DNA from: a virus
Virus record (IMG/VR): IMGVR_UViG_3300036820_000052
Location: 1 to 36,937 of that record
Direction: 5' to 3' (one strand)
Length of the DNA: 36,937 bases
Below are positions 2,945-36,796 of the stretch, piece by piece. The translations under genes were made by a program, and so were the position numbers. Within the stretch, counting starts at the first letter, position 1; the number at the start of each line of letters is the position of its first letter. Below the pieces are notes generated by a model. That model searched no databases and had not been told where the DNA came from. It saw nothing but the letters and a program-made list of their open reading frames with translations.

Positions 2945-3157
2945 TTAGGACGATGCTGGCGGCGGGGTGTTGGCCTGATTGGCCGCTACCGCGTTGTGGT
3001 GAGCGATATACGTCCAAACCGCCGAAATGATGCCGATGAACGAAATGATGCCAATGACGGCCTGCGAGATCGTGTTCTGGTCGATGCCGGTGAGGCCGAC
3101 AAAGGACAGCAAGGTGCTTATCACGGTCACGAGCGCTGCGATTTCTCCTGAGGTCAT
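2945..3157 (-). CDS. Holin-like small membrane protein
   Basis: The 70-residue protein has two hydrophobic stretches, about 5-24 (IAALVTVISTLLSFVGLTGI) and 31-52, with a short polar turn (DQN) between them, and a polar tail rich in Ala, Asn and Pro. Size, two membrane spans and position right after the predicted lysin gene fit a holin, which would open the inner membrane at the end of infection. There is no clear ribosome binding site before the ATG; the upstream stop codon is only five bases away, so translation may be coupled to the lysin gene. No holin family can be named from the sequence alone. Confidence 0.65.
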   Translation of the reverse strand: MTSGEIAALVTVISTLLSFVGLTGIDQNTISQAVIGIISFIGIISAVWTYIAHHNAVAANQANTPPPASS

Positions 3158-3162
3158 AGTTT

Positions 3163-4221
3163 TTAGAGAAGTGAATTTAGCTTTTGTCGAGAAGCAGGAC
3201 CGACCACCTGCCCGCCCAACTCTTCGAGCGTGGCTGTCGAGCTGAGCGCATATTTGAGTTGGAACTTCAAAACGGCTCCCGCGGTGATGCTGCCGTAGTA
3301 CCCTGTCGGCGCGAGATTGAACTCGCCGTCGTAAGCGAGGAACTGCTGGAGCGCCGTTATTTCCTCACCGCTCTGCCCGAGTGCCAAGTCTGTGCTGAAG
3401 GTGTGTTGCGGCGGCTGGACCGGCGCCGGATTGTAGATAAGCACGATGGCGCCCCAGATCGCATTGGCGGCGAAATAGTCCTCGTCGAGGAACTGCCAGC
3501 CGTTGATGCCCGCGCCACTGCCCCAGCTCTGGGGGCACCACAGTCCCTTCTTGCTGTTGTAGATTTGCGGCTGCACGCCGTACATGTAATGCGACCACGG
3601 CGCGCCATCTGCCGCGACCGGCGGCTTGGGTTCCGGCGAGAGCCAGGTGCCGTTGTTGGTGCCGTAGAGCCCGAGCACGATGCCGAGGCAGGCGCTCGCG
3701 GCCTGCGCGACGCTATCGATATCGAAATTCGGAAACGAGTAGGCGAGCGTGGCCTGGTCCTTTGACGCGCCGATGCGCGCGATGGCGGTGATGTCCTGCG
3801 GACGCTCCATGAATGCTTCGGAAGGCGGTTGGTCGCCGTCGTAACTCGGACAATCACCTTCCAGGCCGAAGCCCTGATTCTTGGCGATCGTCGCAAGGTC
3901 GCGGTCGCTACTCCCGCCGCCCGGCACATAGACCTGGCTGTAGAGATATTTGGCGCTGCGCGCGCTCGGGTCGCTGGCGTATGCCGCGCGCAACCGCGCG
4001 CCGTAATAGCTGAACGCCTGTCCGCCGCAGCTGCCGCTCGACCCTTGGTCTTTTATGGCGAGAAGCGAAACGAGCGCCGGATCGGGCCCGGTGCCTACCT
4101 GCCACTGAAATGGATCGGCGGCCTGGGCGACTTCGCGCGCGTCGAAGGGATAATCCCGCGGGTCAGGACGACGCTGGTTCGCGCCGGACGGATGGGAACC
4201 CAACACGTCGATAGGGTTCAT
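3163..4221 (-). CDS. Papain-like cysteine protease with peptidoglycan-binding domain, predicted lysin
   Basis: The 352-residue protein has two parts. Residues about 20-265 resemble C1 papain-family peptidases: KDQGSSGSCGGQAFS places Gln59 (oxyanion hole) six residues before Cys65, as in papain; His211 lies in PWSHYMYG; and QSWGSGAGINGW (231-242) matches the NSWG...G.NG block, with Gln231 where the catalytic Asn normally is. Residues about 278-352 form a peptidoglycan-binding domain (LGQSGEEITALQQFL...GYYGSITAGAVLKFQ). No signal peptide is seen. It sits directly before the holin-like gene, where an endolysin is expected, and no amidase, muramidase or transglycosylase is found elsewhere. A virion-associated or host-interaction role is the alternative. 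Confidence 0.75.
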   Translation of the reverse strand: MNPIDVLGSHPSGANQRRPDPRDYPFDAREVAQAADPFQWQVGTGPDPALVSLLAIKDQGSSGSCGGQAFSYYGARLRAAYASDPSARSAKYLYSQVYVPGGGSSDRDLATIAKNQGFGLEGDCPSYDGDQPPSEAFMERPQDITAIARIGASKDQATLAYSFPNFDIDSVAQAASACLGIVLGLYGTNNGTWLSPEPKPPVAADGAPWSHYMYGVQPQIYNSKKGLWCPQSWGSGAGINGWQFLDEDYFAANAIWGAIVLIYNPAPVQPPQHTFSTDLALGQSGEEITALQQFLAYDGEFNLAPTGYYGSITAGAVLKFQLKYALSSTATLEELGGQVVGPASRQKLNSLL

Positions 4222-4275: not shown

Positions 4276-4563
4276 CTATTTGATACCCACGGTGAAGTAA
4301 TGGGTGACGACGCTCCACACAGCCTCTGCCGATTGGATCGCGCCGCCGATTGCGAAGAAAAAACCAACGACGACGATAGCGAAGCGGCGCAGCGAAATCC
4401 ATTTGTCGTACGCCTCGACCATCGGTGTCACTTTCGCGTCGAGCGCCTTTATCTTTCCGTTGACCGCCTTGTCGACCGCCGTTTGGACCGCCGCGGGCAA
4501 ATGGTCTTGGAGTGCTTGCGCTACCGCCGCGTTGACTGAGTTGTGAATCTCATCTGGCGTCAT
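4276..4563 (-). CDS. Small membrane-anchored protein of the lysis region
   Basis: The 95-residue product has an amphipathic helical N-terminal half (about 1-55, VNAAVAQALQDHLPAAVQTA and onward) and one membrane span at about 60-82 (FAIVVVGFFFAIGGAIQSAEAV). This layout resembles XhlA-type haemolysin-related proteins or an accessory holin. It lies between the tail-fibre gene (six bases) and the predicted lysin (54 bases), so a part in lysis is likely by position. No catalytic or binding motif is visible, and no family can be named with certainty. Confidence 0.65.
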   Translation of the reverse strand: MTPDEIHNSVNAAVAQALQDHLPAAVQTAVDKAVNGKIKALDAKVTPMVEAYDKWISLRRFAIVVVGFFFAIGGAIQSAEAVWSVVTHYFTVGIK

Positions 4564-4569
4564 ACGCGG

Positions 4570-6426
4570 TTACCACAAGTTCGTAATCAGGAGGGTCGTG
4601 GCGGTCAGCGCGATGCCGACCTTGCGCGTAGTCGTGCCGGGACTGGGGCCGATCGAGCCGCTGGTGTCATTGAGGTAATACTGCGCGCCAATGGTGAGGC
4701 CGCTTAGGTTCCCCGCCGTGCCGCCGATAATGACGCGCACGCTGGTCGCGGCGGTGTAGGCCGCATTGGCAAAGCCGATGAAGCTGGCACATGTGGATGC
4801 CAGCAGCGAGCTGCCCTTGTACACGCGTGTGGTGACGCTAGACATGAAGGGAGCTATCGAAATTGCCTCGACGGCACCGCTGTTGCCCGTGCCGATAGCG
4901 CTGATGGTCTGCGTCGCCATCGGGTAAATGCCGCCGGTGTCGGCGCTCACGCACGCACCGCCCGATATCGCGTTGCTGGATGCCCCGCTAAGCGCCCCGC
5001 CTGCTGCGCACATAGCGAAAATGAGCGAGCCATTGGTGAGCGGCGTGAGAGTCAGGCTTTGCGTGCCACCACCAGTGTTCTTCGCGTTCGCTTCCGGCGT
5101 ACTCGTCTGCGCGGCGTTGTAGTAGGAATAGATGTTGAAATTGACGCTCCCCGTGGTGTTCAGCGTGATGACGAGATTGTTCGCTCCGGTCGCTGGCGCT
5201 TCGAGATACCAAATGTCGGCCACGCCGCCATTAATGCCCTCGTGCGTTATTTGACTCAGCGCGACGCCATTGTAGGTGATGCCAGAAACTAGGACGGAGC
5301 CCAGCGCCTCGATTGCCACAACAAGCACGCGGTTGGAATTGGAGCCCACGGTGAAGGACTGGGTAAAGCTTGAGGCGCTGCTGCCGCTGTAGTTGTTTTT
5401 GGCATCGAGCGTCACGGCCACCGATGAATACGGGAGAGCTATCATGGCGTCCCCGGCACTGCCGTTCATGCCTGCGGTATAGAGGTCGGTGATGTCGTTT
5501 GAGGCGAGGCCGGTCATATTGGACGCGTCGCCGTAAAATTCGGCCGCGTAGACGGCTCCCCACCGATAGCTGGCGCCGCCGAGATTGTAGGTATCGTCCG
5601 CCGACGGCAGCAGGGACGCCGGAATTGCTCCCGGATTGAACGGATATTGCAGGAACGGCCGCACGTCGTTGAGGATGTAGCCCTGCCCGCTCGCCTGATT
5701 GCCGTTGTCGAGCAGCTGCGTTTCCCCGACCACGTTGTAAAGCTCGCACAGCGCGGCCTTGTTCGCCGGATAGGTGGGCGCCGACGGGCTCGACGCTTCG
5801 GTGCCGGTCGTCCACGCGAGGGTCCCGGTGTTGTCGATCGTCAGGACATCGATGCGTGGGTTGCCGCTGGGCGTAGTAACGGTGGGCGTCGAGCCGCCCG
5901 AGAAAATGACCCGCGTGCCGTTTACGTAGACGACGCCCGGCTCGACGTAGAGCTGCATCGTCTGCGCGGTATAGCTGCCGCCGGTGACGGTGGTCGATGC
6001 GCCGAAGGAAGAAAGCGGCGCATACAACGAGGTGTTGTTGCTGCACGGCGTGATGGTCGTGCCGGAGAGCGGCCAAATGAGATAGGAGACGAAGAGCTGG
6101 TTGGCTGCGGACAGCGCGACGCCGGTCGCGGTCGTCGTCCGCGGCTGATTGAGAAGCGCAAGCAGGTTGGCGAGCGTCGCCGCCGCGGATGCGCCGATGA
6201 GAACGTTTCCGGCTGCCGTGCCGATAGCCGAGACGAAGGTGAGGACGACATTTGTGCCGTTGATGTCGAGCGTCAGCGTCTGGCCGTTGGTCGGATTGGT
6301 CGGCAGCGCGATGGCGCCTAGTTGCTGATGGACGTGCAGGTTCGCGCCGCCGCGCGCGTCGTGCCGCAAATTCGTAAATTGCTGAACTAAGCCAGCCTCA
6401 CCCGCGACTACGCTGAAGGAGCGCAT
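4570..6426 (-). CDS. Tail fibre or receptor-binding virion protein
   Basis: The 618-residue protein is rich in Gly, Ser, Thr and Ala and low in Lys, typical of beta-structured phage fibres. The N-terminal part (about 1-230) includes VEPGVVYVNGTRVIFSGG, a pattern common in tail fibre and baseplate-associated proteins; the middle has PSADDTYNLGGASYRWGAVY (about 285-305), a standard fibre motif near the trimeric shaft; the C-terminal third looks like beta-sandwich material. It follows the tail hub and distal tail genes and precedes the lysis genes, the usual place of host-recognition genes. No chaperone gene is evident beside it. The exact receptor cannot be inferred. Confidence 0.75.
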   Translation of the reverse strand: MRSFSVVAGEAGLVQQFTNLRHDARGGANLHVHQQLGAIALPTNPTNGQTLTLDINGTNVVLTFVSAIGTAAGNVLIGASAAATLANLLALLNQPRTTTATGVALSAANQLFVSYLIWPLSGTTITPCSNNTSLYAPLSSFGASTTVTGGSYTAQTMQLYVEPGVVYVNGTRVIFSGGSTPTVTTPSGNPRIDVLTIDNTGTLAWTTGTEASSPSAPTYPANKAALCELYNVVGETQLLDNGNQASGQGYILNDVRPFLQYPFNPGAIPASLLPSADDTYNLGGASYRWGAVYAAEFYGDASNMTGLASNDITDLYTAGMNGSAGDAMIALPYSSVAVTLDAKNNYSGSSASSFTQSFTVGSNSNRVLVVAIEALGSVLVSGITYNGVALSQITHEGINGGVADIWYLEAPATGANNLVITLNTTGSVNFNIYSYYNAAQTSTPEANAKNTGGGTQSLTLTPLTNGSLIFAMCAAGGALSGASSNAISGGACVSADTGGIYPMATQTISAIGTGNSGAVEAISIAPFMSSVTTRVYKGSSLLASTCASFIGFANAAYTAATSVRVIIGGTAGNLSGLTIGAQYYLNDTSGSIGPSPGTTTRKVGIALTATTLLITNLW

Positions 6427-6474: not shown

Positions 6475-6786
6475 TCAGGCCGCGATAAGCGTGGTATAGA
6501 CGCGCGCGGTGTAGTCGATGGTCCGGGTGTACTTCTTCATATTGCAATCGCCACAAAGCGGCTGGATGTTTTCGATAAAATTCGTGCCGCCAAATTTGCG
6601 GGCCTTTGCTATGGCGGATTGCTTAGCCCGCCATTCAGGACCTCGGGCATGCACCTGTTCACGAACGCGTTCCGCGACGCATATCTTTTGACCGCAAGTT
6701 GTCAAATGGGAGAGCAGGCAACGGCGGACGAGTTTAACTTGATTGCAAATACAGCATTGCAGCGGTTTTTTGGGTACTGCTCGCAC
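6475..6786 (-). CDS. HNH endonuclease-like protein, probably a remnant
   Basis: The 103-residue product starts with a short zinc-finger pattern (CCICNQV...C...C) and ends with FGGTNFIENIQPLCGDCNMKK, which is the second half of an HNH nuclease motif (the Asn-containing strand and the second zinc pair). The first half, normally a DH or HH within VDHIxPxxxGGTN, is missing: the residues before GGTN are EWRAKQSAIAKARK. This suggests an internal deletion, so the protein is probably inactive. GTG is the likely start. It sits between two tail genes, a usual site for free-standing phage homing endonucleases, and the motif copy at 6464 lies at its 3' end. Confidence 0.65.
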   Translation of the reverse strand: MRAVPKKPLQCCICNQVKLVRRCLLSHLTTCGQKICVAERVREQVHARGPEWRAKQSAIAKARKFGGTNFIENIQPLCGDCNMKKYTRTIDYTARVYTTLIAA

Positions 6787-9098: not shown

Positions 9099-9719
9099 CT
9101 AAGCAACGGCCCTCGCTCCCCAGGTCGGTGTTTTCCTGTGGCAGTCCTTGCAAAGTGTCCGCCCGTTGCTCACCACCAAGCGTAGTTCAGGAAACCGACA
9201 AAATGGTTTTATGTGATCTGCTTCGAGCCTGCTGCCATGCGCTTTGCCCCCCACAACGCATTTGTATCCGTCGCGTTTGAAAACAGCTTCACGCCAAAGG
9301 CGATATTCGAGGCTCGTCCGGATTTTGTGATTGAGTTCTGTAATCCCGCCCTGCCAGCGATACGACTTTTCGCCACGCAATCCGGCCGATATTTTCTTCC
9401 GTGTCGCCTCGGAAAGTTGCTTTCCCTTTGCACTTTCACTCATGCGCTGACGTACAACTTTGCTGTAGCAGCCGGTTTTTCCCTTATTCCACGGGGTGAA
9501 ATTGCTGGGGACGCCTAAATGGGCCGCGGCGATTTTCCGTTTCGTCTCTTCCGTATGCTTCCAACCACACCGAGGAATTCGTGCCTTTTGCGCTAGGCTC
9601 ATTTTCCTTTTTGTAGCCGCCGAATGCGGACCTCGGGAACGGCCGAGATGAGCGAGGCTTAATTTCCGTTTCCACTCTTCAGAAAATGGTGGCCGTTTGT
9701 ATCCTTTTGGTCGTGGCAT
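9099..9719 (-). CDS. HNH homing endonuclease with NUMOD3-like repeats
   Basis: The 206-residue protein has three or more short basic repeats in its first 130 residues (for example SEEWKRKLSLAHLG, TEETKRKIAAAHLG and SEATRKKISAGLRG), the NUMOD3-type DNA-binding motif of phage homing endonucleases. The C-terminal HNH core is present: LEADHIKPFC with the catalytic DH, then VVSNGRTLCKDCHRKT with Asn and His. The first zinc knuckle, normally CxxC, reads CVVGG, so one ligand is Gly. The gene lies between the tape-measure and hub genes with three to six bases on each side, consistent with insertion of a free-standing endonuclease at a gene junction. Confidence 0.85.
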   Translation of the reverse strand: MPRPKGYKRPPFSEEWKRKLSLAHLGRSRGPHSAATKRKMSLAQKARIPRCGWKHTEETKRKIAAAHLGVPSNFTPWNKGKTGCYSKVVRQRMSESAKGKQLSEATRKKISAGLRGEKSYRWQGGITELNHKIRTSLEYRLWREAVFKRDGYKCVVGGKAHGSRLEADHIKPFCRFPELRLVVSNGRTLCKDCHRKTPTWGARAVA

Positions 9720-21642: not shown

Positions 21643-22188
21643 TTATAGACCGCGCCCTGTTTTCTTTCCGTGGCAAGGATTACAGAGCGTCTGAAGGTTT
21701 TTCATCCTGTTATCGTGTGTCTCCCGATACGGCACTATGTGATCAACCTGGAGAGGTGCGCCAAAGCGCCGAACGTTTGCGCGATTGGTAAGGCCGCATT
21801 GCACACACCGGTCATCATCTCGTTCGCGGACTCGGCGTTTGATCTTGTCCCAGAGCGTACCCCGCCACCAAATCTTGCCGCCTTTCCAATTGTGGTTGAG
21901 CGGCCCGACGTGCTCTTTCATCGGATTGAATTTTTTGTGCCATTCTGAGTTTTTCCGGCGCATTGCCGCGCTCTTATTCCGCTCAACTAAGAACGACCAA
22001 TCTCTGCCGGGAAAGTGATTGCCACGTACAGCGTCGTGCGCTGCTGCCGTGGTCTTGTCTGGATCGCGGAGGCCGTTGGCGTATTCAAATTTTAACTGGT
22101 GAGTGCCGTTGCAGTAATTTCGGGGTCTGAGCCGATACGGCGGTCTGCGTAATGCCTTATGACAGTAAGCACATTGTGTAGTTGCCAC
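21643..22188 (-). CDS. HNH homing endonuclease
   Basis: The 181-residue protein starts with a zinc-finger-like segment (CAYCHKAL...RNYCNGTHQ) and has a central basic region with NHNWKGGKIWWRGTLWDKIK. The C-terminal HNH core is complete: RCVQCGLTN, LQVDHIVPYRETHDN (the catalytic DH), then MKNLQTLCNPCHGKKT (Asn and His), with paired CxxC zinc ligands. It lies between the portal gene and a fibre-like gene, a common position for free-standing phage endonucleases that insert at gene junctions and may promote spread of their own gene. The ATG at 22188 is well placed; the function is inferred from motifs. Confidence 0.85.
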   Translation of the reverse strand: MATTQCAYCHKALRRPPYRLRPRNYCNGTHQLKFEYANGLRDPDKTTAAAHDAVRGNHFPGRDWSFLVERNKSAAMRRKNSEWHKKFNPMKEHVGPLNHNWKGGKIWWRGTLWDKIKRRVRERDDDRCVQCGLTNRANVRRFGAPLQVDHIVPYRETHDNRMKNLQTLCNPCHGKKTGRGL

Positions 22189-35727: not shown

Positions 35728-35907
35728 ATGGCAAAGGGTCAACGTCCTGCCTACGAAGTGTTTGTCAGCGAAAAGAGCGGCGACAAGAACTACTACACGA
35801 AGGTCGGCGCGGCCTGGGAGGTGTCGGGCGGCGGCATTTCCATCAAGCTGACCGCGCTGCCGATCGATGGCTCGCTCGTCCTGTTCCCGCCTAAATCCGA
35901 GGATTAG
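35728..35907 (+). CDS. Small protein of mobile-element type
   Basis: The 59-residue product MAKGQRPAYEVFVSEKSGDK continues NYYTKVGAAWEVSGGGISIK and LTALPIDGSLVLFPPKSED. The order (PxYEVFxxE..GDKxYxTKVGAAWxVx..GGxSIxLxALPxDGxLVL) is that of a small family I recall next to replication-relaxation genes on alphaproteobacterial plasmids and integrative elements; its role is unknown. GGAG about ten bases upstream is the ribosome binding site. The stop overlaps the stop of the convergent gene, and a strong terminator follows. The longer frame upstream is a shadow of the CHC2 gene. Confidence 0.75.
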   Translation: MAKGQRPAYEVFVSEKSGDKNYYTKVGAAWEVSGGGISIKLTALPIDGSLVLFPPKSED

Positions 35908-36796
35908 TTCGCCGGGGACGCATGCGCGTCCCCTTTTTTATTGATGCGATAGTCGTCGTACCCGACGCGCTGCCACGCGGCATCGAGAATGAACGGCGTC
36001 GGCGCCGGTGCCTTTTCGAGCGATGCCAGTGACGGCATGGTCATAAACAGGATGTGCGGATGGCCCTTCCCGTCCGTGAGTTCCGACAGCAGCGCCATGA
36101 TGCGGCGCATCTGCCCTTCGTCGGTGGTAACGACGAGTAGCTTCAGATTCGGTAGCCCAAGGCGGCTGCGGTAGAGCGGGCGGTCTTTGTCCAGCACGGC
36201 GATGTACTGGAGCAGCTTGCGCAGCCAGCTAGTCTCCTTGAAGTCGGGACGTCGCATCGGCTCACTGTTGCGATCGGCTTCGAGCGCGAAGAAGCGGTAT
36301 GCCTTCTCGCCGTCACCGGGGAACTTGATGCCAAAGATGGCGTCGGGTTCCAGCGCGCGATTGCACGTTTCGTTGCCCCTCTCGAAGCGGTAGGAAATAG
36401 AGCAAAGAATGTCGAACGGCCGGTCAGCGCGCTTAGTCTCCTCCGGCGCCATGCGCAGGATGGTCGGCCACGGAATGAACCGCAGCTCCGGCCGCTCCCG
36501 GACGCCGATCTCAACCGACGACAAAATGTCGGAAATCATCAGCTCGTGCTGGAAGAGGAAGCCATTGCCGCGACCGCGATGCAGCAGCGGGCTCTCTTCC
36601 GACGCGCGGCCGTGGTCATGTAAGGCGTGCTCGCCCGCCTCGGTCAGCTCGTAGACGGCGGGCATGTAGCGCGCGTTGACCGCCTGCCATTGACGCTCGG
36701 GACGATTCAGATAGCCGAACTCATGGTAGAGCGCGCCCAGGCGCCGGACGAGCGCGTGCCGGTTGCCGCCGACGAGCGCGCACAGGTGGCTGCTAC
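35904..36796 (-). pseudogene. Replication-relaxation-type protein, N-terminus lost to IS66-like insertion
   Basis: The frame is open from the insertion-sequence end to TAA at 35904, about 297 codons. The part near the junction, ALVGGNRHALVRRLGALYHE then YLNRPERQW, is a winged-helix-like N-terminal domain of replication-relaxation proteins, and YELTEAGEHALHDHGRASEE onward continues the family. Later parts have FFALEADRNSEPMRRPDFKE, SWLRKLLQYIAVLDK and KLLVVTTDEGQMRRIMALLS, typical of the C-terminal domain. An internal Met (36665) can be mistaken for the start, but the frame clearly extends upstream. The first part of the winged helix is missing. Such proteins act with relaxases or replication of plasmids and integrative elements. 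Confidence 0.78.
35914..35940 (+). terminator. Rho-independent terminator
   Basis: GGGGACGC (35914-35921) and GCGTCCCC (35926-35933) form a perfect 8-bp stem with the 4-base loop ATGC, followed by six T. It ends the plus-strand gene at 35728 and lies inside the C-terminal codons of the convergent gene. Confidence 0.85.

Follow-up and report, generated by a model that had tools for sequence, protein, structure and literature searches.

There is little doubt that the gene at positions 3163 to 4221 encodes a cysteine peptidase of the papain type (C1A) fused to a cell-wall-binding domain and placed as a cell-bursting enzyme. It lies in the window, by which we mean the whole 36,937-nucleotide stretch that was analysed, a linear, incomplete IMG/VR virus record. 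We propose that the product is probably a lysis endopeptidase (endolysin) with a xylellain-type C1A catalytic domain, released by a holin, anchored on peptidoglycan and cutting peptide bonds of the wall. If so, the classical papain (C1A) enzymes, known for degrading proteins, would join the catalytic domains of phage lysis, with over 50 loci among uncultivated phages in IMG/VR. The question then is whether peptidoglycan peptides can serve as a C1A substrate or whether lysis by some phages proceeds through the cutting of envelope proteins. The fold, family, invariant residues and gene order described here are computed, and from them we infer peptidase activity, holin-dependent release and substrate. 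The features of the locus are as follows.

3163 to 4221, minus strand: lysin-candidate open reading frame with ATG start and TAA stop, 352 aa; C1A-type cysteine peptidase with a C-terminal peptidoglycan-binding domain, from the reading frame, Pfam, an AlphaFold model and Foldseek
3427 to 4110, minus strand: papain-fold catalytic domain, about residues 38-265, from the AlphaFold model, Foldseek and a profile alignment to cathepsin S; limits approximate
4045 to 4047, minus strand: codon of Gln59, the oxyanion-hole Gln by alignment, invariant (21/21)
4027 to 4029, minus strand: codon of Cys65, the catalytic Cys by alignment, invariant (21/21)
3589 to 3591, minus strand: codon of His211, the catalytic His by alignment, invariant (21/21)
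3529 to 3531, minus strand: codon of Gln231, at the Asn position of NSWG; Gln, Asp or Asn across the family
3235 to 3372, minus strand: PG_binding_1 domain, residues 284-329, Pfam E = 3.2e-6, above the curated cut-off
2945 to 3157, minus strand: holin-like small protein, 70 aa, with two hydrophobic segments, starting 5 bp after the stop codon of the lysin candidate; same position in relatives
4276 to 4563, minus strand: small protein, 95 aa, with one C-terminal transmembrane segment; L001 has a homologue at the same place
4570 to 6426, minus strand: probable tail-fibre/appendage protein before the lysis genes, from its position after the tail genes and a G001 homologue; weak family matches only

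Translation of the reading frame places Gln59, Cys65, Gly66, His211, Gln231 and the block QSWG...GINGW where the preliminary description had put them, and the peptidoglycan-binding domain that it had claimed at the C-terminus is the sole domain found by Pfam in the 352-aa protein. Neither an N-terminal signal nor a transmembrane segment was found when looked for in this protein, and the same is true of every family member checked. The gene is under purifying selection, with dN 0.18 and dS 1.2 relative to L001 over the catalytic part and dN/dS well below 1. Four full-length homologues are present in IMG/VR (L001, L002, L003 and L007, with 75 to 44% identity to the window protein), and these, together with the dN/dS ratio and the invariance of Gln59, Cys65 and His211, argue that the reading frame did not arise by chance.

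The AlphaFold2 model, made from a 21-row alignment (pLDDT 85, pTM 0.83), has the predicted papain fold that had been anticipated and is closest to C1A peptidases. In Foldseek searches of the PDB the best match is bacterial xylellain (3ois, E = 6e-10), and the top 50 matches are all C1A peptidases. Among viral models an unnamed protein of the same size comes first (E = 9e-21), followed by phage proteins of which several are annotated as PG-binding or Peptidase C1, and Lysin A structures rank low. In a comparison by profile with our alignment A1, the Cys, His and Asn of cathepsin S fall on Cys65, His211 and Gln231, with weak scores. The C1A signature is thus present as Gln-x5-Cys, His and a polar third residue within the SWG block.

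The expectation that a profile search would favour C1 over CHAP or NlpC/P60 held through the relatives, as PF00112 (Peptidase_C1) passes its cut-off in 8 of 22 records carrying them and matches 9 of 21 members (best E = 2e-13), but not for the window protein alone, which does not reach that cut-off and is linked to C1 through its relatives and its structure. The CHAP and NlpC/P60 models match none of the 21 members, and Peptidase_C39_2 gives one weak match (E = 0.2). We conclude from the profile searches and the C1A-only PDB matches that a CHAP, NlpC/P60 or C39 identity is ruled out, in agreement with the true C1 fold first suggested. The presence of Gln231 had been regarded as an anomaly; the third catalytic residue of papain-like enzymes may be Asn, Gln, Asp or Glu, and Gln is ordinary there (PMC10318531). 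The family has Gln in the clade of the window protein, Asp in most other members and Asn in two, with Glu seen in looser motif matches; the family tree has long branches and served only for naming clades.

The 21 diverse relatives in which Gln59, Cys65 and His211 are invariant were recruited by patterns within the wall-binding domain only, with the active site left unused, and the invariance is therefore not a selection effect. It is partly one in the group B set, where Q[DN]GSGSCV served as one of the search patterns. Scanning IMG/VR with alignment A1 gave 28 loci, with the group B alignment 52 and with the group C alignment 6; the three lists overlap, and a few members share the peptidoglycan-binding domain alone. 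Alignment queries were needed, since searches with single proteins for relatives in groups B and C gave nothing new. Matches in GTDB share only the peptidoglycan-binding domain, and MW202577 is the one full-length relative that turned up among plasmids and GenBank phages. The number of IMG/VR loci rules out a unique oddity, and the idea of an isolated gene is also at odds with the xylellain-type C1A genes reported, by transfer, in Myoviridae and Siphoviridae (PMC10380794).

Several family members have features of their own. In L025 (4825-6846) an intein (Intein_splicing, E = 1e-13; LAGLIDADG_3) splits the gene exactly before the catalytic Cys, which would itself be the +1 splicing residue; this placement is typical of functionally critical sites, and we count it for the lysis endopeptidase reading. 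The gene in L019 (5260-6396) is split into two reading frames, and an intact second copy (L083) is located elsewhere on the same contig. An array of 28 tRNA genes of many specificities lies directly upstream of the family gene in L011 (667-5955). The group D proteins (L017 5194-6318, L024 5098-6258 and L026 5194-6255) combine the same peptidoglycan-binding domain with a different, unrecognised N-terminal domain with a C...HAT pattern; they were excluded because by Pfam they share the peptidoglycan-binding domain alone. Small transmembrane genes directly follow those of L017 and L024.

Comparison with known systems shows both what the window protein shares and where it departs. Xylellain-type short bacterial C1A peptidases (MEROPS C1A, PF00112) resemble it in fold, Gln-x5-Cys, His and SWG block, whereas the window protein is fused to PG_binding_1, is encoded beside a holin-like gene and belongs to a clade in which Asn is replaced by Gln. 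Papain-family catalytic domains are not in themselves new to phage lysins: C39-like domains of that family are carried by mycobacteriophage endolysins (PMC3314691) and C39_2 is among the listed endolysin domains (PMC5017753). The N5 domain of mycobacteriophage Lysin A is likewise a papain-family cysteine peptidase domain in an endolysin, but it is C39-like and part of multidomain lysins (PMC3314691), whereas the window protein comprises C1A and PG_binding_1 only. Peptidase_C39_2, CHAP and NlpC/P60 endolysins (PMC5017753, PMC10318531) have the papain-like superfamily, the lysin role and the combination of peptidase and wall-binding domain in common with it; the family differs in having no CHAP or NlpC/P60 match, a single weak C39_2 match and structural matches to C1A. 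The protein UOF78884.1 of MW202577.1, an uncultivated phage, is annotated as hypothetical. It is related to the window protein over the full length, has the Gln, Cys and His and a peptidoglycan-binding domain, and is encoded ahead of a small transmembrane gene and the SLT-like gene lyZ1. It has 26% identity to the window protein, Asp as third residue and a PG_binding_1 match below the curated cut-off. In the open-access literature, with subscription papers mostly outside the search, we found no paper that assigns a phage lysin role to a C1A domain.

The minus-strand order in the window is terminase, portal, head protease, major head protein, head-tail adaptor, minor tail protein and tape measure, followed by baseplate-like and tail-fibre proteins, the small transmembrane protein (4276-4563), the C1A gene and the 70-aa reading frame with two transmembrane segments. 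Small transmembrane proteins are placed similarly to the 95-aa protein in L005, L010 and L027. The 70-aa protein has weak matches to PHROG holin families (best E = 0.07). A small reading frame with at least two transmembrane segments directly follows 29 of the 56 family genes whose downstream sequence is long enough, compared with 6 of 183 other long reading frames at the same loci; the controls may include non-gene reading frames, and in some of the family negatives such a gene falls just outside the thresholds. The position of an endolysin beside a holin-like gene, noted in the preliminary description, is supported.

No second lysin was found in the window with SLT (PF01464), a custom SLT/lysozyme profile, Amidase_2, M23, phage lysozyme, CHAP or M15_4, and Pfam searches and manual checks of the remaining reading frames recognised none. 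The closest near-complete relative, G001 (47 kb, largely collinear with the window and with an integrase at its end), has no other recognisable lysin either; the window stops short of the integrase end of G001, and the absence of a second lysin is not proof. The claim that there is no other lysin thus stands for the window and G001 but fails for many relatives, including L002, L003, L005, L010, L014, L019, L021 and L023, in which a lysozyme/SLT-type gene is near the family gene; several of these lysozyme/SLT-type proteins have an N-terminal hydrophobic segment. The lysin reading is left standing, with the C1A gene as one of two lysins in those phages. In L027 an M23 peptidase joined to PG_binding_1 occupies a similar setting with an SLT/lysozyme-like gene downstream, and this swap of M23 for C1A supports a role at the wall.

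We envisage that the enzyme, having no export signal, would remain cytoplasmic until the two-helix holin-like protein encoded next to it opened the inner membrane, and that the PG_binding_1 domain would then hold it on peptidoglycan. The Cys65-His211-Gln231 triad would cut peptide bonds of the wall, and Gln59 would stabilise the oxyanion. In many relatives the separate lysozyme/SLT-type protein with its N-terminal hydrophobic segment may cut glycan strands alongside, and in the lineage of the window the C1A protein would act as the only recognisable lysin.

Known C1A enzymes cut ordinary L-peptide bonds and peptidoglycan stems contain D-residues, which counts against an endolysin, as do the weak holin matches and the failure of the window protein alone to reach PF00112. 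An alternative explanation is that the protein is a wall-docked protease that aids lysis by cutting envelope proteins, such as lipoproteins that link the outer membrane to peptidoglycan or an S-layer protein. This would suit C1A enzymes as protein endopeptidases; the separate SLT gene of many relatives could do the glycan cutting, and the integrase at the end of G001 has an Arm-DNA-bind_3 domain, a type known mainly from Gram-negative hosts. However, the window and G001 have no other recognisable muralytic gene, which would leave breakage of the wall to the C1A protein, and the M23 swap in L027 points to peptidoglycan peptides. We regard an accessory of this kind as unlikely. It is similarly doubtful, if marginally less so, that a C1A protease acting as sole lysin lyses the cell through proteolysis of wall-bound envelope proteins or through a stem-peptide cut not known for C1A.

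The location of the gene after a tail-fibre gene, and the occurrence of peptidoglycan-binding peptidases in tails, would also be compatible with a tail-tip enzyme of the virion that aids entry rather than exit. The protein has no tail domain, however, a gene with two transmembrane segments comes directly after roughly every second family gene, compared with 3% of control reading frames, and a holin-like gene is next also in relatives whose following genes are not tail genes; a role in entry is thus very improbable. We give equally little credence to a non-catalytic or differently acting C1A relative, such as a regulator or a processing protease of a partner lysin. The substitutions at the Asn position and after Cys, and the split gene in L019, would be in keeping with this, but Gln, Cys and His are invariant in all 21 diverse members, the third position accepts Gln, Asp and Asn (PMC10318531), and many phages carry the gene without a recognised partner lysin. 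A peptidoglycan-anchored lysis endopeptidase remains the reading we favour.

The gene directly after the holin-like gene (2063-2917) encodes a DUF4145 protein (E = 9e-15; phrog_1305, E = 7e-28). Three HNH endonuclease genes are located among the structural genes (6475-6786, 9099-9719 and 21643-22188). A protein with a Replication-relaxation domain is encoded at 35904-36665 of the window and a TraG-D_C protein at 41446-43800 of the related temperate phage G001; both genes are of a conjugation- or plasmid-like kind, here carried by tailed phages.
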